Shown: positions 33,885 to 47,179 of the stretch, piece after piece
Layout of the letters: each line of letters opens with the position of its first letter
How positions within the stretch are numbered: position 1 is the stretch's first letter
NCBI GenBank assembly: GCA_022843485.1
Contig: JALHNM010000001.1
Coordinates: forward strand, 1 to 64,000
DNA: 64,000 nucleotides
Source: Fimbriimonadaceae bacterium
GTDB lineage: Bacteria > Armatimonadota > Fimbriimonadia > Fimbriimonadales > Fimbriimonadaceae
Reading direction: 5' to 3'
Translations under genes and position numbers: made by a program
The notes under the pieces: generated by a model
What the model was told of the DNA's origin: nothing
Databases searched by the model: none
The model's input: the letters and a program-made list of their open reading frames with translations, nothing else

Positions 33885-34901
33885 GTGGAGGACGGCACTC
33901 TCGCTCCCGAACGAGTCCACGAGGCCCTGCCGAGTCTGAGGGCGGTGCTCGCTGGGGCACGGGGTGTCCGGTTAGGAACGCACCTCAACCCCGACGGCGA
34001 CGCGATCGGGAGCGCGCTCGGACTCTCCCTCTGGCTCGACCGGCTCGGCGTCCCCCACGAGGTGCTCTGTCACAACGAGCCACCCGGCTACCTGCGGTTC
34101 CTCCCCGGCTCCGACCGCGTCCTCGCCGAGCCCACCCGACCGGCCGACGTCGGGATCGTGCTGGACCTCGAGGCCCTCGAACGGCTCGGTTCGTGCCGCC
34201 CGTACTTCGAAGGCCTGACCCGCCTAGTCGTCATCGACCACCACATCCCCCACGAAGCCCCCGGCGACCTGCGCATCGTGAGCACGGCCGCCCCGGCCAC
34301 CTGCTCGATCCTCGTCGACCTCCTGGACGGCTCCGACCCCGGCATCGACGCCGACGTCGCCACGTGCCTCCTCACCGGCATCGTCACCGACACGGGGAGC
34401 TTCCGGTTCAGCAACACGACCGCCCGGTGCCTCCACCAGGCCGCCCGGCTCGTCGAACTCGGTGCGAGCGCGGCGCAGGTCGCCAGCGAGTGCTACCTCA
34501 ACCGCGACGAGGCGGCCGTGCGGCTGCTCGGAGAGGCCCTCCACCGCGTCCGCACGGACATGGACGGCCGTCTCGCCTGGGTCGCCCTGCCCGCCGAGCT
34601 GTTCGACCGCCTCGGGGCGAAGGAGGAGCACACCGAGGGCATCGTCAACGAGGTCCTGAGCGTGCGCACCGTCCAGATCGCCGCCGTGCTCCGGCCGGGC
34701 AAGAACGGCAAGGTCAAAGGGAGCCTGCGGAGCAAGGGCGACCTCGACGTCGCCGCCGTAGCCCGGGAAATCGGCGGGGGTGGCCACAAAAACGCCGCCG
34801 GGGTGACCTACACCGGCACTCTCGAAGAGGCCGAAACGGTCATCATGGAGGGACTCAGGCGATGCTTGGCGTCCTCCTCGTCGATAAACCCGCCGGCGTG
34901 A
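33885..34901 (+). CDS. DHH-DHHA1 phosphoesterase (NrnA-like nanoRNase/pAp phosphatase)
   Basis: This 338-residue protein has the DHH metal motifs THLNPDGDAIGS (His33, Asp37, Asp39), VLDLE (Asp94) and VIDHHIPH (118-120), with a later Asp in IVTDTGSFRFSNT. The DHHA1 RNA-binding glycine motif is GGGGHKNAAG. NrnA-type enzymes degrade 2-5 nt RNAs and dephosphorylate pAp. The neighbour truB follows with a 40-base overlap, the common nrnA-truB order. The start is GTG with a leaderless-type TAACCT element. Confidence 0.9.
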   Translation: MEDGTLAPERVHEALPSLRAVLAGARGVRLGTHLNPDGDAIGSALGLSLWLDRLGVPHEVLCHNEPPGYLRFLPGSDRVLAEPTRPADVGIVLDLEALERLGSCRPYFEGLTRLVVIDHHIPHEAPGDLRIVSTAAPATCSILVDLLDGSDPGIDADVATCLLTGIVTDTGSFRFSNTTARCLHQAARLVELGASAAQVASECYLNRDEAAVRLLGEALHRVRTDMDGRLAWVALPAELFDRLGAKEEHTEGIVNEVLSVRTVQIAAVLRPGKNGKVKGSLRSKGDLDVAAVAREIGGGGHKNAAGVTYTGTLEEAETVIMEGLRRCLASSSSINPPA

Positions 34902-35734
34902 CGTCGCACGACGTAGTCCAGTCGGTGCGGCGACGGCTGGGCACACGACGGGTCGGCCACGCGGGCACGCTCGACCCCGTCGCCACTGGCCTGCTCGTGG
35001 TCGCCGTCGGGCCCGCCACCCGCTTCCTCCAGTACCTCCCCCTCGAGCCCAAGGTGTACGAGTGCACCTTCCGCTTCGGCGAGACCACCAAGACCTACGA
35101 CTCGGAGGGCGACGTCGACGAGCGCAGGCCGGTCCCGCCCGACCTCGTCGCCAAGATCGCCGAGGCCCTGCCCCGCTTCACCGGCCCCATCGAGCAGCTC
35201 CCGCCCCTCTTCAGCGCCGTCAAGAAGGAGGGCAAGCCGCTCTACGCCTACGCCCGCCAAGGCGAGGAGGTCGAGCGCGAACCCCGCCGTGTGTTCGTCG
35301 AGCGGTTCGAGACCCTTGTCGTCGATACCCCCGAGGCCGAGTTCCGGGTCGTCTGCAGCGGCGGCACTTACGTACGCTCCCTCGCCCACGACCTCGGCGA
35401 GGCCGTCGGGTGCGGGGCCCACGTGGTCGAGCTCGAACGCACCCACGTCGGCCGGTTCGCCCTTGAGGACGCCGTGCGGCCGGACGACGTCACCGCCGAC
35501 CGGCTCATCCCTTTGCGCGAGGCGCTCCCCCCGATGCCCCTCATCCGCCTCAACCCGGGGCAGATGGACCGCGTCCGCACGGGCCAGTTCGTGAAGGTGC
35601 CCGTCGCCCCCCCGGAGGACTACGTCGCCCTCACCGACCCGGACGGGGCCGTCGTCTCCGTCGCCCGGGTCGACGGCCAGCTCCTCCACCCCGAGTGCGT
35701 GCTCCCGGCCGAGGCGCTCCATGGCGTTGTTTGA
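34862..35734 (+). CDS. truB: tRNA pseudouridine(55) synthase TruB
   Basis: TruB converts U55 of tRNA to pseudouridine. The 290-residue protein opens with LLVDKPAGVTSHDVV, has the catalytic Asp38 in GHAGTLDPVATGLL and continues with YECTFRFGETTKTYDSEGD, PPLFSAVKKEGKPLYAYAR and CSGGTYVRSLAHDLG. A C-terminal PUA-like domain is present. ATG 34862 lies 40 bases inside the DHH gene, in another frame, so the two are probably translationally coupled. The 3' end overlaps the DUF2752 gene by 14 bases. Confidence 0.95.
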   Translation: MLGVLLVDKPAGVTSHDVVQSVRRRLGTRRVGHAGTLDPVATGLLVVAVGPATRFLQYLPLEPKVYECTFRFGETTKTYDSEGDVDERRPVPPDLVAKIAEALPRFTGPIEQLPPLFSAVKKEGKPLYAYARQGEEVEREPRRVFVERFETLVVDTPEAEFRVVCSGGTYVRSLAHDLGEAVGCGAHVVELERTHVGRFALEDAVRPDDVTADRLIPLREALPPMPLIRLNPGQMDRVRTGQFVKVPVAPPEDYVALTDPDGAVVSVARVDGQLLHPECVLPAEALHGVV

Positions 35735-36200
35735 GACCCCCGAGACCCCCCGTCAAGCCCGAGGCCAGTGGGTCTGGGTCATCGCTTGGCTAGCGGTCAC
35801 CGTGATCGGGGCCTTCGTGCTGCGGCCCGACCCCGCGGGCCACGGCACCCACCAGCAGCTCGGCCTCCCGCCCTGCCCGTCGATCTTGCTGTTCCAGCGC
35901 CCCTGCCCCGGGTGCGGGCTCACCACGAGTTGGACGGCCCTGCTGGACGGCGACCTGCCCACCGCCTTCCGCGCCCACCCCCTCGGCCCCCCGCTCTACG
36001 CCCTGTTCACCCTGGCCGCCCTCGCCTGCTTCGTCGGAGCGGTGCGCGGGCTGCGGTTCCGGGCCGAGAGCCGCCCCGTCAACACCGTGCTCGTCGCGAC
36101 CGTCGTCCTCCTCGCCGGCTTCGGCGCCGTCCGCTTCGCGACGGTCACCGTGCCCCTCGAAGACTCCCTCCCCCGCTGGCTCACCGGTCGCCAGCCGTGA
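35721..36200 (+). CDS. DUF2752 membrane protein
   Basis: The 159-residue protein has three hydrophobic helices. The family signature CPSILLFQRPCPGCGLT lies between the first and second, with the Cys-Pro-Gly-Cys-Gly-Leu-Thr core, followed by TAFRAHPLGP. DUF2752 proteins are small inner membrane proteins with no assigned function. It is coupled to truB by a 14-base overlap and is the last gene before the kdp control region. Confidence 0.85.
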   Translation: MALFETPETPRQARGQWVWVIAWLAVTVIGAFVLRPDPAGHGTHQQLGLPPCPSILLFQRPCPGCGLTTSWTALLDGDLPTAFRAHPLGPPLYALFTLAALACFVGAVRGLRFRAESRPVNTVLVATVVLLAGFGAVRFATVTVPLEDSLPRWLTGRQP

Positions 36201-36230
36201 CCGAGCCTAGGCTCGCGCCCACGCTCGCGT

Positions 36231-36280
36231 CTTGATGCGACCTTGAGGCCCCCCGGTCCGGCCTTGAGGCCGAGTTGACC
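36231..36280 (+). promoter_or_regulatory. Candidate KdpE operator: two pairs of 7-bp direct repeats
   Basis: CTTGATG (36231) and CTTGAGG (36242) are separated by 4 bases, and CTTGAGG (36263) and GTTGACC (36274) again by 4 bases. Each pair therefore has an 11-bp period and the two pairs are 32 bp apart. OmpR/PhoB-type regulators bind such head-to-tail 7-bp repeats. KdpE, encoded at the end of this operon, belongs to that class. The site ends 53 bases before kdpF. Confidence 0.5.
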
Positions 36281-36301
36281 TGCCCCTGACGGAGACTCCC
36301 T

Positions 36302-36320
36302 GGCATGGTCTGTCCATGCC
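36302..36320 (+). promoter_or_regulatory. Inverted repeat next to the kdpF ribosome binding site
   Basis: GGCATGG and CCATGCC form a perfect 7-bp inverted repeat with a 5-base spacer. It ends 2 bases before the GGGAGG ribosome binding site (36323-36328). It could be a second operator or, if transcribed, a hairpin abutting the binding site. Confidence 0.35.
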
Positions 36321-36333
36321 GCGGGAGGCGTCC

Positions 36334-36429
36334 GTGAACGTGCTCCACGTGATCGCCGGGGTCGTCGCCCTGGGGCTGTTCGTCTACCTCCTCGTCGCCC
36401 TGCTCGCCCCTGAGAGGTTCTCGGCGTGA
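36334..36429 (+). CDS. kdpF: KdpF small subunit of potassium-transporting ATPase
   Basis: This 31-residue single-helix protein ([24 protein letters not shown]) has the length and the C-terminal P-E-RF ending of KdpF, which stabilises the KdpABC complex. GTG 36334 is preceded by GGGAGG with 5 bases spacing. An upstream in-frame ATG (36316) lies within the inverted repeat and lacks such a site. The stop overlaps kdpA as GTGA. Confidence 0.85.
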
Positions 36430-38159
36430 CGTCGGGCTGGGCGTTCATCGCGCTCTACGTCGCCGTCCTGATCGGCGCGGCGATCCCTCTCGGGAGGTTC
36501 ATCGCCCGGGTCCTGGAAGGCGAGCGCACCGTCTTGCACCCTGTCCTCGGGTGGCTCGAGCGCGCCCTGTACCGGGTTTCAGGGGTCGACCCCGAAGCGC
36601 CGATGGGGTGGGCGGCTTACGCCAAGACCCTCCTGGCCCTGGGCGTGGTGAGCGTCGCCATCGTGTTCGCCGTGCTCCTGCTCCAGGGTTCGCTCCCTCT
36701 GAACCCGGACCAACTGCCTGGCGTCGAGTGGACGAGCGCGCTCAACACAGCCGTCAGCTTCGTCACGAACACGAACTGGCAGGGCTACGCCGGCGAGACC
36801 ACGATGAGCCACTTCTCGCAGATGGTGGCCCTCGGGGTCCAGAACTTCGTGAGCGCGGCCGTGGGCATCGCGGTGATGGCGGCGCTCGCCCGCGGCCTCC
36901 GTCAGCGGCAGGCCGACGACCTGGGGAACGCCTGGGCCGACATCGTGCGCGGCACGGTCTACGTGCTGCTGCCCCTGTCCCTCGTGCTCGCCGTCGCCCT
37001 CGTGGCGAACGGCGTGCCCCAAACGTTCTCCCCCACCGTCGAAGCCCGCCTGCTGCAGCCGACCCAAGACGCGGACGGGGCGGAGGTCACGGCCCAGCGC
37101 ATCCCCCTCGGGCCGGTCGCGTCCCAGGTGGCGATCAAACAGCTCGGCACGAACGGCGGCGGCTTCTACAACACGAACTCGGCCCACCCCCTCGAGAACC
37201 CGAACGGGGTCTCGAACGCCCTCCAGTGCCTGGCCATTCTCCTGATCCCGGCCGCCCTTTGCGTCACGTTCGGCGAGCTCGTCCGCGACCGCAGGCAGGG
37301 TGGGGCCCTCCTCACCGCGATGGCGCTCCTGTTCGTGCTGTTCCTGGTGCCGACCGTGGTCTCGGAACAGGCCGGGAGCCCCGCCCTCGCCGCGGCCGGG
37401 TTGACCGGACAGGGCAACTGGGAGGGCAAAGAGGCGCGGTTCGGGATCGAGGCCTCCGCCCTCTGGGCCACGGCCACCACCGCGGCCAGCAACGGCTCCG
37501 TGAACGCCATGCACGACTCGCTCACCCCGCTCGGTGGGTTCTTCCCCCTCGTGCTCATGCAGCTCGGGGAGGTGGTCTTCGGGGGCGTGGGGTCGGGGCT
37601 GTACGGGATGATCGTCTTCGCCGTGGTCGCGGTGTTCGTGGCCGGGCTCATGGTCGGCCGCACCCCGGAGTACCTCGGCAAGAAGGTCGAGGCGTTCGAC
37701 ATGAAGATGGCGTCGATCGCCGTGCTCGTTCCGAGCGCCCTCGCCCTCGTCGGCCTTGCCGTCGCGATCTTCGCGGGCCAGGCCCGGCCGAGCATGAGCA
37801 ACCCCGGCGCCCACGGGTTCAGCCAGCTCCTCTACAACTACTCGAGCATGGCTGCGAACAACGGTTCGGCCTTCGCCGGCTTCTCCGCGAACGTGCCGTT
37901 CCACAACCTGTCCGGCGCTGTGATCATGGGGATCGCCCGGTACGGGGTGATCGTCGCGATCCTCGCCTTGGCCGGTTCGCTCGCATGCAAGAAGGTGACG
38001 CCGCCGGGCGCGGGCACATTGCCGACCCACACCCCGCTGTTCGTCGGCCTCCTGTGCGCCGTGGTCCTCACGATCGGCGCCCTCACCTTCGTCCCTGCCC
38101 TCGCGCTCGGGCCGCTGGCCGAGCACTTCCAGCCCGTCGCCGCGGAGGTGGCCCGGTGA
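36426..38159 (+). CDS. kdpA: Potassium-transporting ATPase subunit A
   Basis: KdpA is the K+-selective, channel-like subunit of the KdpFABC pump. The 577-residue protein has about ten helices and the four selectivity-filter-like P-loops: [43 protein letters not shown], and the fourth around [14 protein letters not shown]. The conserved NPxG-type opening (NPDQLPG) is also present. The start GTG overlaps kdpF by 4 bases. Expression is expected under K+ limitation through KdpDE. Confidence 0.97.
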
Positions 38160-40273
38160 GCGGTCGCACCCCGGGCGGGGCCACGTTCGACGGCGCCCTG
38201 GTCGGCCGGGCCGTCGTCGACTCCCTCAAGAAGCTCGACCCCCGCTGCCAGATCCTGAACCCGGTCATGTTCGTCGTCTGGGTCTGCGCCGTCTTCGCGA
38301 CCGTCCTCGCTGGCCTCGGGTTCGCCGGACAAGGCGAAGGCCAACCCGTCTTCGCGGCGTGGGTCGCCCTCTGGCTCTGGTTCACGCTGGTCTTCGCGAA
38401 CTTCGCCGAGGCCATGGCGGAGGGACGGGGCCGCGCCCAAGCCGACTCCCTCCGCAAGTCCAAGCAGGACGTCCCCGCGGCCAAGGTCGCTTGGGACGAG
38501 TCGACCGGCCTCCCGGACGGGGTCCGCCAAGCCCTTCGGGCCGGGGCGGAAACGTTCGACCATAGCCCGGTCCGATCGTCCGGGCTGCGCCGGGGCGACG
38601 TGGTCGTCGTCCGGGCGGGTCACGTCATCCCCGGGGACGGCGAGATCGTCGAGGGCGTGGCGACGGTGGACGAGTCCGCCGTCACCGGCGAGTCGGCGCC
38701 CGTCGTCCGTGAGGCGGGGGGCGACCGGAGCGCCGTCACCGGCGGCACCCGGGTCCTGAGCGACTGGATCGTCGTCAAGGTCAGCGCCGAGCCGGGCGAG
38801 AGCTTCCTCGACCGGATGATCGCGATGGTCGAGGGCTCGAAGCGCCAGAAGACGCCGAACGAGATCGCCCTGAACATCCTGCTCGCCGCCCTGACGCTCG
38901 TGTTCTTGCTCGCCTGCGCCACCCTCCTCCCGATCAGCCTCGACGCGGTCCAAGCGGCCGGGCGGGGCGAGCCGGTCACCGTGACCGTGCTCATCGCCCT
39001 CCTCGTCTGCCTGATCCCGACGACCATCGGGGGCCTCCTCAGCGCGATCGGGATCGCGGGCATGGACCGCCTGCACCAGAAGAACGTGATCGCGACCTCC
39101 GGGCGGGCCGTCGAGGCGGCGGGGGACGTGGACGTCCTGCTCCTAGATAAGACGGGGACCATCACGCTGGGCAACCGTCAGGCCGTGGCGTTCCTGCCCG
39201 CCCCGGGGGTCTCTGAAGCCGAGCTGGCCGACGCTGCCCAGCTGAGTTCCCTGGCGGACGAGACCCCCGAGGGCCGGAGCATCGTGGTGCTCGCCAAGGA
39301 CCGCCACGCCCTGCGCGAGCGGGACGTCCACGCCCTCGGCGGCCACTTCGTGCCGTTCACCGCCCAGACGCGGATGAGCGGAGTCGACCTCGACGGCCGC
39401 CAGGTTCGGAAGGGCGCCCAGGACGCGGTCCGGGCCTTCGTGGAGTCCAACGGGGGCCAGGTCCCCGAAGCCGTCGCCGCTCAGGTCGCCGACGTCGCGA
39501 AAGGCGGGGGCACCCCGCTCCTGGTCGCTGAAGGCAGCCGGACGCTCGGCGTCGTCCACCTCAAGGACGTCGTCAAGGGCGGGATCAAGGAACGGTTCGC
39601 AGACCTGCGTACCATGGGCATCCGCACCGTGATGATCACGGGCGACAACCCCCTCACCGCCGCCGCCATCGCCGCCGAGGCCGGGGTCGACGACTTCCTG
39701 GCCGAGGCCACCCCGGAGGCCAAGCTCAAGCTCATCCGGTCGTACCAAGAGGGCGGTCGGCTCGTCGCCATGACCGGCGACGGCACGAACGACGCCCCCG
39801 CCCTGGCCCAAGCCGACGTCGCGGTGGCCATGAACACCGGCACCCAGGCGGCCAAGGAGGCGGGCAACATGGTCGACCTCGACAGCAACCCGACCAAGCT
39901 CATCGAGATCGTGGAGACCGGGAAGCAGATGCTCATGACCCGCGGGGCCCTCACGACCTTCAGCATCGCGAACGACGTGGCCAAGTACTTCGCGATCCTG
40001 CCCGCGGCGTTCGCGCCCGTCTACCCGCAGCTCGCCGCCCTGAACGTGATGGGGCTCAAGAGCCCCGAGACCGCGATCCTCAGTGCGGTCGTGTTCAACG
40101 CCCTCGTCATCGTCGCCCTCGTGCCCCTCGCTTTGCGGGGGGTGCCGTACCGGCCGGTCGGCGCCGACGCCCTCCTGACCCGCAACCTGCTGCTCTACGG
40201 GCTCGGCGGCCTCGTCGTCCCGTTCGTCGGCATCAAGCTCATCGACCTCGTCATCGGCCTCTTCTGGAAATGA
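38156..40273 (+). CDS. kdpB: Potassium-transporting ATPase subunit B (P-type ATPase)
   Basis: KdpB hydrolyses ATP to drive K+ uptake. The 705-residue P1A-type ATPase has the actuator motif [13 protein letters not shown], which contains the regulatory Ser of TGES. The phosphorylation site [10 protein letters not shown] has Asp331, and the hinge motifs [10 protein letters not shown] and [13 protein letters not shown] follow. [17 protein letters not shown] lies late in the membrane domain. GTG 38156 overlaps kdpA as GTGA, and the stop overlaps kdpC by ATGA. Confidence 0.97.
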
Positions 40274-40848
40274 ACACCCTCCTCCAATCACTCCGCGCAA
40301 CGCTCGCCCTCACCGTGGTCTGCGGCGTCCTCTACCCGCTCACCGTCATGGGTGTGGCCCAAGTCGCCTTCCCCCGCCAAGCGGCCGGGAGCCTGATCGT
40401 CACCGACGGGCAGGCCATGGGGTCCGAGCTGGTCGGGCAACCGTTCTCCGACCCGCGCTACCTTTGGGGCCGTCCCTCGGGCACGTCGCCCTCGCCCTAT
40501 AACGCCGCAGCGTCTTCGGGGCGGAACCTCGGCCCGACGAACCCTGCGCTCACCGAGGCCCTCGCCGCCCAGGCCACCGCACTGCGCGAAGCGGCCGCCG
40601 ACCCCGCCCTCCCGATCCCGGCCCTCCTCGTGACCGCGTCCGGGAGCGGGCTGGACCCCCACGTCAGCCCCGAAGCCGCCGCCGTACAGGTCCCCCGCAT
40701 CGCGGCGGCCCGTGGGCTCGACGAAGGGCAGGTCCGCGAGGCGGTCGCACGGGCCACGACCCCGCCCGCCCTCGGCCTCCTCGGCGAACCGGTCGTGAAC
40801 GTCCTGCAGGTCAACCTCGCCCTCGACGCCACGGGAGCGGGTCGGTGA
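40270..40848 (+). CDS. kdpC: Potassium-transporting ATPase subunit C
   Basis: The 192-residue protein has one N-terminal helix ([22 protein letters not shown]). The periplasmic KdpC domain contains [38 protein letters not shown] and [10 protein letters not shown]. KdpC raises the K+ affinity and aids nucleotide use by KdpB. It overlaps both neighbours by 4 bases. Confidence 0.96.
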
Positions 40849-41960
40849 CCGGCCTCGAAGCCCTCGCAATGGCGGGCGCCGTCGTGGCGGCCGCCCTCGG
40901 ACAAGGCCAGGATAAGGGCTCGGCGTGGACCCTGACCCAGGCCGTGTCGGTGGACACCTACCTCACCCAAGCCTCTGACCGGCCTCCCGTGGGCGGGTCG
41001 GTGCCGGTGCGGCAGTTCGATACCCGTGACCGGTCCCCGCGGCTCGCCGCCCTCCGGCTCGACGTCTCGGCGACGAGCCCGTGCGGTCGGTTCGGCGTCT
41101 CACTGAGCCCCTGGGTGGGCGACAACGCCGACCTCCTCGCCGACCTCGACCCCGACCGCCCTGCCCTCCTCCGCTCCCTGGCCGAGGGCACCCTCGCCTT
41201 CCGCGACCCCAAGGCCGGGTTCAGCCTCGAGGTCGGGAAGTTCGCCTCCTGGATCGGCTCCGAGTCCCTCGACAACTCCGGCAACGACCTGCTCACCCGG
41301 GGCCTGCTCTATACGGTGGCCCAGCCCGTCTGGCACACGGGAGCCGGGGCCTCGGTAGCGCTGTCCCCCCGCCTCGGCGCTACCGCCTTCGCCGTCACGG
41401 GGTGGAACCAGACCTCCACGACCGGCGACCGGCTCGGCTTCGGGGCCCAGGTGCGGTACGACCTCGGGCAGGGCCGGACGCTCGCCGTTGGGTCGATCCA
41501 TAGCGAGGAGGGGGGCGACGCCGCCAACCGCCTCGGCAGCTTCGGCGGGGCCGGGTTCGCGAACGCGGGCCGGGCGCAGATCGACCTCGTCGACCTCATC
41601 TACGTCCAGCCGCTCGGCCCGGCCACCCGGCTCACGGTCAACGGCGACTACGGGAGCGGCCACGGCACCGCCGGGTCGGGGACGTGGGGCGGGCTCTCGC
41701 TCACCGCCCGCCACGAGCTCACGCCCCGCCTTGCCCTCGCGGTCCGGGCGGAGCGGGTGTTCGACCACGGCGGGCTGCGGCTGGGGCAATCGGCCGACGT
41801 CTCGTCAGTCACGCTCGGGGCCTCGTACCGGCTGGACCCGCGGGTCGCCCTGCGCCTGGACCTGCGCCGTGACTGGGCCGACCGCGACCTCTTCACGCTT
41901 CGCGAGCGGACGGCGAGCACGGTCTCCACCGCGACCCTCGGGCTCACCGCCCGCTTCTAG
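40845..41960 (+). CDS. Outer-membrane beta-barrel porin of the kdp operon (bbp2/OmpL-like)
   Basis: The 371-residue protein has an N-terminal signal (MAGAVVAAALGQG). After it come alternating hydrophobic strands ending in a C-terminal Phe (TATLGLTARF), the mark of outer-membrane barrels. Segments such as GFSLEVGKFASWIGSESLDNSGNDLLTRGLLY match the OmpL-like porin family (bbp2) found in kdp operons of other diderm bacteria. It is coupled to kdpC by GTGA and precedes kdpD. The inferred job is to admit K+ through the outer membrane when the pump is induced. Confidence 0.8.
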   Translation: MTGLEALAMAGAVVAAALGQGQDKGSAWTLTQAVSVDTYLTQASDRPPVGGSVPVRQFDTRDRSPRLAALRLDVSATSPCGRFGVSLSPWVGDNADLLADLDPDRPALLRSLAEGTLAFRDPKAGFSLEVGKFASWIGSESLDNSGNDLLTRGLLYTVAQPVWHTGAGASVALSPRLGATAFAVTGWNQTSTTGDRLGFGAQVRYDLGQGRTLAVGSIHSEEGGDAANRLGSFGGAGFANAGRAQIDLVDLIYVQPLGPATRLTVNGDYGSGHGTAGSGTWGGLSLTARHELTPRLALAVRAERVFDHGGLRLGQSADVSSVTLGASYRLDPRVALRLDLRRDWADRDLFTLRERTASTVSTATLGLTARF

Positions 41961-41971
41961 ACCCGAGAGGC

Positions 41972-41977
41972 TAAGAT
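41972..41977 (+). promoter_or_regulatory. TANNNT element before kdpD
   Basis: TAAGAT lies 9 bases before ATG 41987, so kdpDE may also be transcribed from their own start in addition to read-through from kdpFABC. An AGG immediately before ATG could also serve ribosome binding. Confidence 0.4.
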
Positions 41978-41986
41978 CGAGGCAGG

Positions 41987-44662
41987 ATGGACGGCCGACC
42001 GGACCCCGACGCCTTGCTGGCCGCGATGCCCAGGGCCGAGCGCGGCCCCGGCCGGGGGCGGCTCAAGGTCTACCTCGGCATGGCGGCAGGGGTAGGCAAG
42101 ACCTACGCGATGCTCAGCGACGCCCAGGACGCACGCGCACGCGGCCAGGACGTCGTGGTCGGCTACCTCGAGCCCCACGGCCGGGCGGAGACGAGCGACA
42201 AGGCCATCGGCCTCGAAGCCCTCCCCACCCGCCAGGTCGACCACAAGGGCGCCGGGCTGCTCGAGTTCGACCTCGACGCCGCCCTCGCCCGCCGCCCCGG
42301 GGTGCTTCTTGTGGACGAGCTCGCCCACACGAACGCCCCCGGCTCGCGCCACGCCAAGCGGTGGCAGGACGTCCTCGAGCTCCTCGACGCCGGGATCGAC
42401 GTCGCGACCACCGTCAACGTCCAGCACCTCGAGAGCCTCAACGACGTCGTCGCCCAGATCACGGGCGTGGTCGTCACCGAGACCGTGCCCGACCACCTGC
42501 TTAGCGACGCCGAGGAGATCGAGCTGATCGACCTCCCCCCCGAGGAGCTGCACCAGCGCCTTCGGGACGGCAAGGTCTACGCCGCCGAGAAGGTCGACCA
42601 AGCCCTCCAGAGCTTCTTCCGCCAGCGCAACCTCGTCGCCTTGCGCGAACTGGCCCTCCGCCAAGCCGCGGACCGGGTGGACCAGGACGTCCGGCGCGAA
42701 CGCGCAGCGGAGGGAGCGACCGAACCCTGGGCGAGCGGCGACCGGGTGCTGGCCTGCCTGGCCCCGAACCGCCTCGGGGCCAGGGTCGTTCGGGCCGCCA
42801 AACGTCTCGGCGACGCCCTCCACGCCCCCGTCGTTGCCTGCACGGTGGCGAGCCCCCGCCAGTCCGGCGTCCGGCCCCTCGACCGGGCATCGGTCGACGA
42901 AGCCCTCCGCCTTGCGGAGTCCCTCGGCATGGAGACGGCCACGCTGGCCGGGGACGACATCGTGGGTGAGATCCTGAGCCTGGCCCGGTCGCGCAACGTG
43001 ACCACGATCGTGGTCGGCAAACCGATCCGGCCCCGCTGGCGCGAGCTGCTCGTCGGCAGCGTCGTCGATACCCTCGTGCGCCGGAGCGGGGACATCGACG
43101 TCCACGTGATCACCTCCCCCGAGCGGGCCGCCGCCCCGGTCCAACCTGCCCCCGAGTCGGGGCGGTTGGGCTGGGCCGGGGTGGTCGAAGCCGGGATCGC
43201 CGTGGGCCTCGCGACCGGTCTGTGCGTCCTCCTCGACGGTGCGGTGAGCCCGGTGAACCTGGTGATGGTCTACCTGCTCGCGACGACGGTGGTCGCCGTC
43301 CGGAACGGCCGCCCCGCCGCGTTCTTGGCGTGCCTGCTCTCGGTGGGGACGTTCAACTGGGCGTTCGTCCCCCCTCGCGGGAGCTTCGCCGTGGCGGACG
43401 TGCAGTACGTCCTCACCTTCGGCGTCATGCTCGCGGTCGGCCTCATCCTGAGCACCCTCGCCTCCCGGGTCCGTCAGCAGTCGCTGGACGCCACGGAGCG
43501 GGAACGGACGACGGCCGCGCTCTACGACCTCGGGCGCCGTCTGGCCAGCTCGCGGAGCCGGGTCGAGGTCTGCCAGGCGGGGGCGGCCAAAGTGCGCGAG
43601 GTGCTCGGGGCCGACGCAGCCGTCTGGTTCACGAGCCGCACGACGGGCGCCCTCTACCTCGCCGCCCCGTCGGCGATCGGACTCGAGGACGACCCCCAGG
43701 AGCTCGCGGTGGCGCAATGGGCGCACGTCCACGCCAAGACGGCGGGCCATGGCACCGACACCCTGCCCGGCGCGACGGGGCGCTACCAGCCGCTCCAAAG
43801 CCCGTCTGGGGTCGTGGGCGTGCTCGGCGTCGCCGCCACGGACGGCGAGCGCTGGACCCCCCGCCGGGTCCACGTCCTCGAGACCGTGGCGAACGTCGTC
43901 GCCCTCGCCGTCGAACGCACGAACCTCGCCAAGTCCAGCCACGAGGCGAGCCTGGAACTCGAGCGGGAACGGCTGCGCGGGACCCTGTTGAGCTCGGTGA
44001 GCCATGACCTTCGCACCCCTCTGAGCGTGATCGCGGGGGCGGCCGCGACCCTCAGCGAGAGCGCCCGGCTGACGGACCCCCGCGACCGGGCCCTCGCCAC
44101 ATCGATCGCCGAGGAGGCCGACCGCCTCGGCCGACAGGTGCGCGACCTCCTGGACATGACCCGAGTCCAGAGCGGCAGCGTCGAGCTCGACCGGCGGTGG
44201 CAGTCGGTCCACGAACTCGTCGCCACCGCCCTCTCCCGCACCGAGTCCCTTCTCGGTCGTCACCACGTCTCGCTCGACCTCCCCCCCGATCTGCCGCTGC
44301 TGCGCCTCGACGCCCCCCTCGTCGAGCAGGTCCTCGTGAACGTCCTCGAGAACGCCGCCCGCCACACGCCGCCCGGCACCCACGTCTGGGTGAGCGCCGA
44401 ACTCGAGTCGCCCCGGCTCCACCTGCGACTCGCCAACGACGGCCCCGACCTCGACCCCGGAGAGACCGAACGCGTGTTCGAGCCCTTCTACCGGAAAGGG
44501 GGGGAGGGGGGCCGGGGGTTCGGGCTTGGCCTGGCGATCGTCCGGGCCGTCGTCGAGGCCCATGGCGGGACGGTGCGGGCGGGTGGCCGGCCGGGAGGGG
44601 GGGTCGTGTTCGAGCTCTCCTGGCCGCTCGAGAAGGATCAACCGGAGGTCCCCGTTGGCTGA
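41987..44662 (+). CDS. kdpD: Sensor histidine kinase KdpD
   Basis: The 891-residue kinase has all KdpD modules. The N-terminal KdpD domain carries Walker A GMAAGVGKT (Lys38) and LLVDELAHTNAPGSRH. A USP-like domain (VLACLAPNRLG) follows, then four close helices around residues 400-500, a GAF-like region, and HisKA with SSVSHDLRTPLS (His673). The HATPase part has NVLENAARHTP and GFGLGLAIVRAVVEAHGG. It senses low K+ or ionic conditions and phosphorylates KdpE. The stop overlaps kdpE by 8 bases. Confidence 0.97.
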   Translation: MDGRPDPDALLAAMPRAERGPGRGRLKVYLGMAAGVGKTYAMLSDAQDARARGQDVVVGYLEPHGRAETSDKAIGLEALPTRQVDHKGAGLLEFDLDAALARRPGVLLVDELAHTNAPGSRHAKRWQDVLELLDAGIDVATTVNVQHLESLNDVVAQITGVVVTETVPDHLLSDAEEIELIDLPPEELHQRLRDGKVYAAEKVDQALQSFFRQRNLVALRELALRQAADRVDQDVRRERAAEGATEPWASGDRVLACLAPNRLGARVVRAAKRLGDALHAPVVACTVASPRQSGVRPLDRASVDEALRLAESLGMETATLAGDDIVGEILSLARSRNVTTIVVGKPIRPRWRELLVGSVVDTLVRRSGDIDVHVITSPERAAAPVQPAPESGRLGWAGVVEAGIAVGLATGLCVLLDGAVSPVNLVMVYLLATTVVAVRNGRPAAFLACLLSVGTFNWAFVPPRGSFAVADVQYVLTFGVMLAVGLILSTLASRVRQQSLDATERERTTAALYDLGRRLASSRSRVEVCQAGAAKVREVLGADAAVWFTSRTTGALYLAAPSAIGLEDDPQELAVAQWAHVHAKTAGHGTDTLPGATGRYQPLQSPSGVVGVLGVAATDGERWTPRRVHVLETVANVVALAVERTNLAKSSHEASLELERERLRGTLLSSVSHDLRTPLSVIAGAAATLSESARLTDPRDRALATSIAEEADRLGRQVRDLLDMTRVQSGSVELDRRWQSVHELVATALSRTESLLGRHHVSLDLPPDLPLLRLDAPLVEQVLVNVLENAARHTPPGTHVWVSAELESPRLHLRLANDGPDLDPGETERVFEPFYRKGGEGGRGFGLGLAIVRAVVEAHGGTVRAGGRPGGGVVFELSWPLEKDQPEVPVG

Positions 44663-45350
44663 CCCCGTCCGCCTCCTCGTGATCGACGACGAGCGCCCCA
44701 TCCGTCGCCTCCTGCACAACGGGCTCGAACCGGCGGACTTCGAGGTGCTGGAGGCGGAGGACGGGGGCCAAGGCCTGCGTATGGCGGCGGCCGACAACCC
44801 GGACATCGTCCTCCTCGACCTCGGCTTGCCGGACATGGACGGGCTCGAGGTGACCAGGCGGCTCCGGGAGTGGTCCGACGTCCCCGTCATCGTGCTCAGC
44901 GCCCGCGGGCAGGAACGGGACAAGATCGCCGCCCTCGACGCCGGGGCCGACGACTATATGACCAAGCCGTTCGGGTTGGGCGAGCTCAAGGCCCGGGTGC
45001 GGGTCATGCTGCGCCACCGGGCCCAGGTGCGGGGCGCCGAGCCGCTCCCGGTCTACCGGGGGGGCGGTCTCGAGGTCGACTTCCCCGCCCGCCACGTCTT
45101 CGCCCACGGCCGCGAGGTGCACCTCACCCCCACCGAGTTCAAGTTCGTGGCCGTGCTGGTGCGGCACGCCGGGCTCGTGGTCACCCACCGCCAACTGCTC
45201 ACCGAGGTCTGGGGCCCGGCTTACGCCGACGAGGTGCACTACCTCCGGGTCTACGCCCAGCAGATCCGGGCGAAGGTCGAGCTCGACCCGGCCCGGCCCA
45301 CCTTGCTCATCACGGAGACCGGGGTGGGCTACCGCCTCGTCGGCGACTGA
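44655..45350 (+). CDS. kdpE: Response regulator KdpE
   Basis: This 231-residue OmpR/PhoB-type regulator has a receiver with DDE at residue 11-13, phospho-acceptor Asp55 in LLDLGLPDMDG and Lys104 in MTKPFG. Its winged-helix domain contains VHLTPTEFKFVAVL and VHYLRVYAQQIRAKVE. I chose TTG 44655 because GGAGG (44644-44648) lies 6 bases upstream; no ATG or GTG occurs before the receiver. It should bind the paired direct repeats upstream of kdpF. Confidence 0.96.
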   Translation: MADPVRLLVIDDERPIRRLLHNGLEPADFEVLEAEDGGQGLRMAAADNPDIVLLDLGLPDMDGLEVTRRLREWSDVPVIVLSARGQERDKIAALDAGADDYMTKPFGLGELKARVRVMLRHRAQVRGAEPLPVYRGGGLEVDFPARHVFAHGREVHLTPTEFKFVAVLVRHAGLVVTHRQLLTEVWGPAYADEVHYLRVYAQQIRAKVELDPARPTLLITETGVGYRLVGD

Positions 45351-45363
45351 GGGCCGAGGGCGG

Positions 45364-46029
45364 CTAGCCCGTGACGAGCACGAGGGAAAGGGGGACGAGG
45401 GGGAGGGTCTGGCCGGTGGCGGAATCGACCAACCGCAGCGCCGTCGCGACCACGCCGGGCGTCGCGGCCACGGTCACCGAGCGGTCCGGGACGTCGAAGC
45501 CCGAGAACGCCCGGCTGCGATAGCGCTCTGCATAGGGGGTGCGGTGGATCGAGGCGAGGCGCTGGGTGAGGAGCTCGGCCACGACCCCGGGGCTCGTCGG
45601 GGCGTCCGCCGTGAAGCGCACGCCACCCTGGACCGGCCCGGCCGTGACCCGCACCCGGTCGCCAGTGAACGGCACCGTCGGCGGGGCGAGGGGCAACTCC
45701 CGGCCCGGGTCGATCTGCAGGAGCTTGAGGCCCAGGCGCGTGAAGAGCGCCTGCCCCGTCGCCACCGGGCCGATGAGGAGCCCCCCGCTCGCCTCCTGCA
45801 AGGCCCGGGCGGCCACCGACCACGCCTGGGCCTGGTCGACCGTGAGGCCCGTCCAAGCCCGGCTCACCCGTGCCAGGGCCACCCGGCGGGCCAATTGGGC
45901 CGGTGAGGCGGGGTCTCGGGGGGTCGGTCGGTTGCGCACGTCGACCCCTCGGACGGTGCGGACGAAGGTAACGTTGCCCGCCGACCCGTGCAGGCTCGGC
46001 GTGATCAGACTCGGAACGGCCCTGGCCAT
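45364..46029 (-). CDS. Hypothetical protein with phage-like 'NPxTPAQ' type N-terminus
   Basis: The 221-residue protein starts at ATG 46029. It contains SAGNVTFVRTVRGVDVRNRP, then PASPAQLARRVALARVSRAW and LTVDQAQAWSVAARA. This pattern (a basic RxRP segment, a P-x-PAQ-x-xRR segment and a W-x-x-LT-x-x-Q-x-x-W segment) is one I associate with small phage- or element-borne structural proteins. The rest is beta-rich (VRVTAGPVQGGVRFTADAP) and ends in a hydrophobic strand. No domain is firmly recognised. Four 11-bp tandem repeats lie 77-120 bases upstream. Confidence 0.6.
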   Translation of the reverse strand: MARAVPSLITPSLHGSAGNVTFVRTVRGVDVRNRPTPRDPASPAQLARRVALARVSRAWTGLTVDQAQAWSVAARALQEASGGLLIGPVATGQALFTRLGLKLLQIDPGRELPLAPPTVPFTGDRVRVTAGPVQGGVRFTADAPTSPGVVAELLTQRLASIHRTPYAERYRSRAFSGFDVPDRSVTVAATPGVVATALRLVDSATGQTLPLVPLSLVLVTG

Positions 46030-46105
46030 AGAGGGATTCTCGGGCCGCACACGGCCGATCCCCAGTCTCAGCCCAGGGCCTCCCGCCGGTCTCCTTGGGC
46101 CCGAC

Positions 46106-46149
46106 CGCACGGACACCGCACGGACAGCGCAAGGACACCGCACGGATAC
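46106..46149. repeat. Four tandem copies of an 11-bp repeat
   Basis: CGCACGGACAC, CGCACGGACAG, CGCAAGGACAC and CGCACGGATAC follow each other without gaps. They lie between the 3' end of the PfkB gene and the 5' region of the hypothetical gene. The 11-bp period places each copy on nearly the same face of the helix. Confidence 0.85.
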
Positions 46150-46183
46150 GCCTCGAGTGCCCGTCGTGGGGCCGGGGAAAGGG

Positions 46184-47179
46184 TTACGGCCGTTCGCCGC
46201 GGCGGGCCCGGTCGACGGCCTCGAGGTCGATGGACGGCAGCCGGGGGCCGAGGGTGGCGACGCAGCGGCCGGCGATGTAGGTCGCGATACGGCCGGTGGC
46301 GTCGAGGGGGAGGCCCCGGGTGAGGCCGTAGAGCAGGCCGGACGAATAGACGTCGCCCGCCCCGGTGGTGTCGACCCGGGTCTCCGGGTAGACGGGGACG
46401 TCGTGGACCTCGTCGCCACGGCGCAGGACGGAGCCTTGGGCCTCCTTGGTCACGACCGCGACCTCGGCCCAGCTCGCGAGGGCGTGGCAGGCGTCTTCGG
46501 GGGTGTGGGTGTCCGTGAGGGCCTGCGCCTCGGTCCAGTTGCCGACGATCAGGTCGACGTGGTTGCGGACGAGGCGGAGCAGGTCGTCCTTGTGGCGGGC
46601 GACGCAGAAGGGGTCGCTGAGGCTGAGGGCGACCTTGACCCCGAGGCGGTTGGCCTCTTCGAAGGCGAACTGGACGGCGTCCTTTTGGGTGTCGGTGTCC
46701 CAGAGGTAGGCGGTGGCGTAGAGCATCGAGCAGGCGGAGAGGTCGTCCACGCGGACGTCGGCGCGCTCGAGGCTGCGGCTCTCGCCGAGGAAGGTGCACA
46801 TGGTGCGCTGCTTGTCCGGGGTGATGAGGACGAGGCAGATGCCGGTGTCGCCGTCGGCGTTGCCGAGGTTGGCGCGGACGCCTTTGGCCTCGAGGCCGTG
46901 GCGGTAGAGGTCCGCGTGCTCGTCGCGGCCGACCTTGCCGGTGTACACGCCGGTGCCGCCGAGTTGGGCGAGCCCGATCATCGTGTTGGCGCCGGACCCG
47001 CCCGCCTCCGAGTTGACGATGTGGGTGTGGACGCGGGGGAGCATCGCCCGCTGCTGGTCGAGGTCGACGAGGTGCATCCCGCCCTTTTGGAGCCCGAACT
47101 CTTCGAGCAGCTCGTCCCCGACTTCGGCCTGGATGTCGTAGAGGGGGTTGCACACGCCGAACACGTCGTATCGCGCCAT
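46184..47179 (-). CDS. PfkB family carbohydrate/adenosine kinase
   Basis: The 331-residue kinase opens with YDVFGVCNPLYDIQAEV. It has the N-terminal GGSGANTMIGLAQLGG motif and ends with the anion-hole/catalytic motif VDTTGAGDVYSSGLLYG (base Asp276). GVKVALSLSDPFCV and the NWTEAQAL segment, in which the Asn-x-x-Glu coordinates Mg-ATP, fit the adenosine-kinase-like branch of the family. It probably phosphorylates a nucleoside or sugar; ribokinase-like alternatives cannot be excluded. A TATAAC -10-like element sits about 30 bases upstream. Confidence 0.85.
   Translation of the reverse strand: MARYDVFGVCNPLYDIQAEVGDELLEEFGLQKGGMHLVDLDQQRAMLPRVHTHIVNSEAGGSGANTMIGLAQLGGTGVYTGKVGRDEHADLYRHGLEAKGVRANLGNADGDTGICLVLITPDKQRTMCTFLGESRSLERADVRVDDLSACSMLYATAYLWDTDTQKDAVQFAFEEANRLGVKVALSLSDPFCVARHKDDLLRLVRNHVDLIVGNWTEAQALTDTHTPEDACHALASWAEVAVVTKEAQGSVLRRGDEVHDVPVYPETRVDTTGAGDVYSSGLLYGLTRGLPLDATGRIATYIAGRCVATLGPRLPSIDLEAVDRARRGERP

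Follow-up and report, generated by a model that had tools for sequence, protein, structure and literature searches.

The 64,000-nucleotide window analysed here, the first stretch of a contig from a Fimbriimonadaceae bacterium, carries a kdp operon, which encodes an emergency potassium pump and is preceded by four TTGA-centred repeats. The question is whether these repeats form the operator through which KdpE, the product of the operon's last gene, switches it on and, if so, whether such an operator is peculiar to this lineage.

Four repeats ahead of kdpF

An earlier note on this DNA had described four TTGA-centred 7-mers before kdpF, arranged as two pairs with an 11-bp period. All four are present on the + strand, as CTTGATG-cgac-CTTGAGG at 36231-36248 (box 1) and CTTGAGG-ccga-GTTGACC at 36263-36280 (box 2), and the window letters also give the distance of 32 bp that had been reported between the pairs. 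The doublet sits in the gap between a DUF2752 gene (stop at 36200) and kdpF, in front of an operon with the order kdpF-kdpA-kdpB-kdpC-porin (BBP2)-kdpD-kdpE. The features are:

36229 to 36249, + strand, predicted KdpE box 1 (distal), with half-sites CTTGATG at 36231-36237 and CTTGAGG at 36242-36248
36261 to 36281, + strand, predicted KdpE box 2 (proximal), with half-sites CTTGAGG at 36263-36269 and GTTGACC at 36274-36280, over the expected -35 position
36305 to 36337, + strand, 10-codon ORF, apparently what is left of an ORF for a small membrane protein found before kdpF in relatives
36334 to 36429, + strand, kdpF (PF09604, 39.4 bits), with a probable GTG start (ATG at 36316 in the ORF list)
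36426 to 38159, + strand, kdpA (PF03814, E 1e-232)
38159 to 40273, + strand, kdpB, by its position between kdpA and kdpC, its frame lying inside ORF 36551-40273
40270 to 40848, + strand, kdpC (PF02669)
40845 to 41960, + strand, outer-membrane porin of BBP2 type, within the kdp operon (PF07642, E 2.9e-39)
41987 to 44662, + strand, kdpD, sensor kinase with KdpD, Usp, DUF4118, GAF, HisKA and HATPase domains
44655 to 45350, + strand, kdpE, OmpR/PhoB-type response regulator and presumed ligand of the boxes, with an inferred TTG start

With its GTG start, kdpF overlaps the preceding ORF by 4 bases, as it does in relatives. The 10-codon ORF has kept the start and stop positions of the ~30-aa ORF of the relatives and has lost its middle. 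In those relatives (L116-L131) a conserved single-TM ORF of ~30 residues, e.g. MDLAALGIILGLALGTFGLIRMCEKLEAVE, lies between box 2 and kdpF, and the two examples tried had no match in Pfam or NCBIfam. A porin-like gene stands directly before kdpF in some relatives, and in the window it stands between kdpC and kdpD. As to the regulator, its assignment to the OmpR/PhoB type agrees with the PDB, where it matched E. coli KdpE best (4kny, 246 bits) and, among regulators of other names, PrrA next (157); the NCBIfam KdpE model was likewise the best for this protein, yet with 265 bits did not reach its cut-off of 325. Residues R193, R200 and T215, which are needed for DNA binding by E. coli KdpE according to the accessible part of PMC3264566, are all present.

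Within the 64 kb window TTGA-N7-TTGA occurs twice, both times in the doublet, against 0.26 expected, and two occurrences were reached in 4 of 100 shuffles. Across the organism's own genome the single pair is at chance level (20 occurrences vs 19 for the pattern read backwards) and was rejected as evidence, so that the evidence must rest on the doublet and on the relatives. The doublet itself occurs once in that genome and 0 times when read backwards. Scanned with a doublet model built from 16 relatives, with the window left out, the site scored 34.7 bits, and no other position in the 64 kb exceeded 8.7 on either strand; taken separately, box 1 scored 17.8 bits and box 2 16.8 bits with the distal-box and proximal-box models of 16 relatives. 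A stricter single-box pattern, TTGAYNNNNTCTTGA, exceeded its backward control in most family genomes whether kdp was present or not, and a single box therefore cannot define a regulon.

Conservation of the repeats ahead of kdp in relatives, on which the earlier note had staked its reading, was found throughout the closer part of the family. KdpA was detected in 32 of 85 family genomes, and the doublet precedes kdp in 17/17 of those, the window among them, whose KdpA has 60% identity or more. The four TTGA were perfect in 8 of these doublets, with one mismatch in 8 and two in 1, and the box spacing was 32 in 6 and 31 in 11. Among the 15 more distant family kdp loci for which upstream sequence was available (KdpA ~44-51% identical), 7 had one or more exact pairs before kdp or before the porin gene in front of it, and in 8 exact TTGA-N7-TTGA was absent within 4 kb upstream. 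When the exact doublet was searched in 113 genomes of the order, allowing 14-24 bases between the pairs, there were 20 occurrences in 18 genomes and 0 for the backward control. Ten lay ahead of kdpF/A, one between kdpA and kdpB, one elsewhere in a kdp locus, three ahead of a KimA gene and one ahead of a tiny Cys/Lys peptide ORF; the last four were in or near unrelated genes and look like chance matches. At L167 (G081:C1:1584332) a TTGA doublet precedes the tiny ORF MKIFICKPICKPICKP; this genome lacks KdpA.

The box across phyla and the predicted layout of the promoter

In 80 named loci of other groups, the top 80 retained from a KdpA scan, we searched the 450 bp that precede kdpA. The family-trained distal box reached at least 15 bits on the kdp strand in 26 of them and on the opposite strand in 0/80, and 0.08% of 5938 control windows passed the same threshold. 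With the third base of each half-site left open to G or T (the G/T-neutral model), 52/80 reached at least 16 bits, with 0 on the opposite strand and 0.14% of 5900 controls, a count that is partly circular because 31 training sites were drawn from those same 80 loci; the clean cross-phylum test is that of the family-only distal-box model. At a threshold of 8 bits, the G/T-neutral model found no box in 14 of the 80. Proteobacteria, Planctomycetes, Nitrospira, Clostridia and Bacteroidetes have the box ahead of kdp, the third base being G or T. In general form it reads cTTKAYRC with an 11-bp repeat period, and the window has its TTGA form. Box 1 scored 20.5 bits as a cross-phylum box, with a second half that has GG and departs from the YR positions of the general form; box 2 fitted the cross-phylum model of the distal box poorly (-0.4 bits). 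The earlier suggestion of a lineage-specific box has thus to be given up, as boxes stand ahead of kdp across phyla and the E. coli site is the T variant, and what stands of that reading is a probable operator for KdpE in which two direct-repeat boxes of the OmpR/PhoB type lie on the same helical face.

The third base is tracked by residue 198 in the recognition helix of KdpE. Among 60 boxes, G boxes went with a residue other than H in 31/31 cases, and T boxes with H in 23 and non-H in 6 (Fisher p 2e-11, the best of 96 DNA-binding-domain columns). Mixed-type boxes, named loci scoring under 10 bits and loci in which KdpE could not be read are excluded from this count, and the GG label of its family rows was taken from the search for exact pairs. 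The residue-198 rule did not hold up as a test of independent origins, with 3 independent pairs of which 2 typically agreed and 0 opposed (sign test, median p 0.5), and with so few independent pairs the rule is unproven.

Of the named loci, 54 scored at least 14 bits under the G/T-neutral model. A second box (at least 5 bits) lay exactly +32 from the distal box in 26 of these, and every other offset was seen in 0 to 2 loci, with the exception of 6 at -11, the repeat period. A -10-like A...T pair was present at +17 in 35 of the 54 (median 2 over the offsets tried). In the family promoters (17 kdp and 8 kimA), an A at +18 and a T at +22 from the last TTGA were invariant. Such an A and T are the two key bases of the -10 hexamer, and they place the following features in the window:

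36292 to 36297, + strand, predicted -10 element GAGACT, with A at 36293 and T at 36297, at a fixed distance in 25/25 family promoters
about 36304, + strand, predicted transcription start, placed 7 bases downstream of the T that is invariant in the -10

Taking the T of the -10 as -7, the distal box of the family would extend from ~-72 to -53 and the proximal one from ~-40 to -23, so that the latter would occupy the place of the -35. A consensus scan for a standard sigma-70 promoter at the site gave none, nor was a terminator found there. No riboswitch leader (c-di-AMP or other) was matched in Rfam near the site, the three sub-threshold matches in 34000-46500 being chance ones. The leader RNA folded somewhat better than shuffles (z -2.66), with a GGCATGG/CCATGCC hairpin, and the inverted repeat GGCATGG-TCTGT-CCATGCC (36302-36322) lies directly past the promoter. 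Since the ATG of the 10-codon ORF falls on the predicted transcription start, the kdp mRNA may be leaderless.

We believe that the segment is very probably the KdpE operator-promoter of kdpFABC. Binding by KdpE, dimer stoichiometry, activation and signal are what we infer from this layout: at low K+, phosphorylated KdpE would bind as two head-to-tail dimers, one for each pair of half-sites and with the pairs three helical turns apart, and KdpE at the proximal box would replace the missing -35 and recruit RNA polymerase to the -10 GAGACT. A less likely arrangement, which nevertheless deserves consideration, is that the distal box alone is the KdpE site and the proximal TTGA pair a look-alike conserved promoter element of the -35 region. 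This would agree with the one 23-bp element (-72 to -50) described in E. coli in the accessible part of PMC3264566, and with the lower conservation of box 2, where one of the two TTGA is imperfect in 9/17 family kdp promoters vs 1/17 for box 1. However, box 2 has the direct repeat with its 11-bp period too and is found at +32 across phyla, and its last TTGA starts 17 bases upstream of the -10 hexamer, which gives a spacer of 11 bases, too short for a -35.

The doublet at a second potassium importer

Another family gene preceded by the doublet encodes a KimA-type K+ importer, identified by its match to 6s3k (E 3.5e-108). The doublet was present at 8/8 copies of KimA clade A (72-100% identical to the query), with 25.2-43.9 bits, and at none of the other scanned family copies, whose maximum was 13.2, or 9.2 for the 14 loci that were scanned whole for want of a located start; one full-length copy (G078) and several partial ones stand outside these counts. 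A KdpE homologue adjoins clade-A KimA in 8/8 genomes, and in five of them (L311-L315; G039, G057, G056, G072 and G044) the gene order is kimA, a kinase of 339-351 residues, kdpE. This kinase, scanned in L315, has DUF4118, HisKA and HATPase domains only and lacks the KdpD sensor and Usp domains. Four of the eight clade-A genomes (G039, G056, G057 and G072) have neither KdpA nor a KdpD sensor domain. As the doublet stands beside KdpE homologues at KimA, also where KdpA is missing, the box goes with the regulator and not with the pump. We found no kimA-kinase-kdpE operon in the accessible portion of the literature on KimA with KdpE, kinase, regulator or importer.

Two further observations concern other KimA genes. 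In another clade (G008, G009, G010, G016, G018 and G020-G023), KimA lies ~1 kb or less from a KdpD-sensor protein of 365-385 residues that lacks a kinase part and resembles the NCBIfam 'KdpD-like non-kinase potassium sensor', and there is no TTGA doublet there. The copies L200/L222 (G058) and L213 (G007) have CTTACGAAATCTTTACGG-type repeats ahead of them, possibly a further box variant.

The association with KimA bears on whether the boxes might belong to another regulator of the OmpR/PhoB type, e.g. PhoB, that also acts on kdp. The direct-repeat geometry is common to the whole class, with PhoP as an example (PMC4832192), and E. coli PhoR is able to phosphorylate KdpE (PMC5458449), according to the accessible parts of both papers. 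However, all eight doublet-bearing KimA genes adjoin the KdpE-like regulator of their genome whereas the other KimA copies have no doublet, and the doublet occurs only once in the organism's own genome, so that we regard control by a different regulator as very improbable. That the repeats arose by chance or by tandem duplication and have no part in regulation, as the chance-level frequency of the single TTGA-N7-TTGA genome-wide might suggest, is contradicted by the held-out model score, the family conservation, the strand bias and the fixed offsets, and can practically be dismissed.

Comparison with known KdpE, PhoB and PhoP sites

The boxes of the window resemble the pho boxes of PhoB and the sites of M. 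tuberculosis PhoP in being 7-bp direct repeats with a 4-bp spacer, and pho boxes stand in for the -35. The core is CTGTCAT in the pho box and TCACAGC in the PhoP site, and neither core nor regulator is that of the window boxes. Identity with a PhoB pho box was rejected, as the half-sites are CTTGATG, CTTGAGG, CTTGAGG and GTTGACC vs a CTGTCAT-type core. For PhoP, the 7-bp repeats and the 4-bp spacer are given in the accessible part of PMC4832192.

On a broader scale, we lean, with some reserve, towards the view that most bacterial kdp promoters, that of E. coli included, are two-dimer promoters, with a strong box at ~-61 and an often degenerate box 32 bp downstream that would replace the -35; that the choice of TTGA or TTTA half-sites would be set largely by KdpE residue 198; and that, in this family, the operator would have moved with KdpE and a KdpD shorn of its N-terminal sensor domains to KimA, which would replace Kdp in some genomes. 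The TTGA variant, the two-dimer architecture and the link to KimA appear to be new. Neither the 32-bp doublet nor a KdpE box of general form was described in the accessible text of the papers searched (including PMC3264566, PMC5401905, PMC5458449 and PMC3938482), an absence that is unproven as subscription papers were mostly outside the search. The box together with its spacing would provide a search model for KdpE regulons, residue 198 may choose between TTGA and TTTA, and the KimA operon predicts KdpE-type control of a different potassium importer.

The 22-bp KdpE site of M. smegmatis has, according to its authors, no noticeable similarity with other KdpE sites (PMC5401905, accessible part). 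Its reverse complement, TTGATGG-TTTC-TTTACGG, fits the box with 18.9 bits, and the site as printed scores -13.8. In E. coli, the accessible part of PMC3264566 describes one KdpE element, a footprinted stretch of 23 bp from -72 to -50 with half-sites TTTATA and TTTACA separated by a 5-bp gap, the first two half-site bases TT being invariant across genera. Under the G/T-neutral model the E. coli K-12 site (NC_000913) was top-placed, with 22.1 bits. Both promoters have two direct half-sites at an 11-bp period with TT first, and a KdpE ortholog with the same key residues, and the distal box of the window would lie at a similar distance (~-72 to -50) from the predicted start. They differ in the third half-site base, G in the window and T in E. 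coli, the core TTTA being absent from the window boxes, and in the second box 32 bp downstream, which is well formed in the window whereas E. coli-type promoters have a weak form of it. In Citrobacter (L102) this weak box scored 8.5 bits, and its 21 letters are those of K-12, where the predicted proximal box of kdpFABC is ATTTTTGCGAAATCTTTGCAG. In the textbook E. coli promoter the model predicts that KdpE makes a second contact, over the -35, and a single box with a single spacing would bring together the sites of E. coli, of Mycobacterium and of several other phyla.
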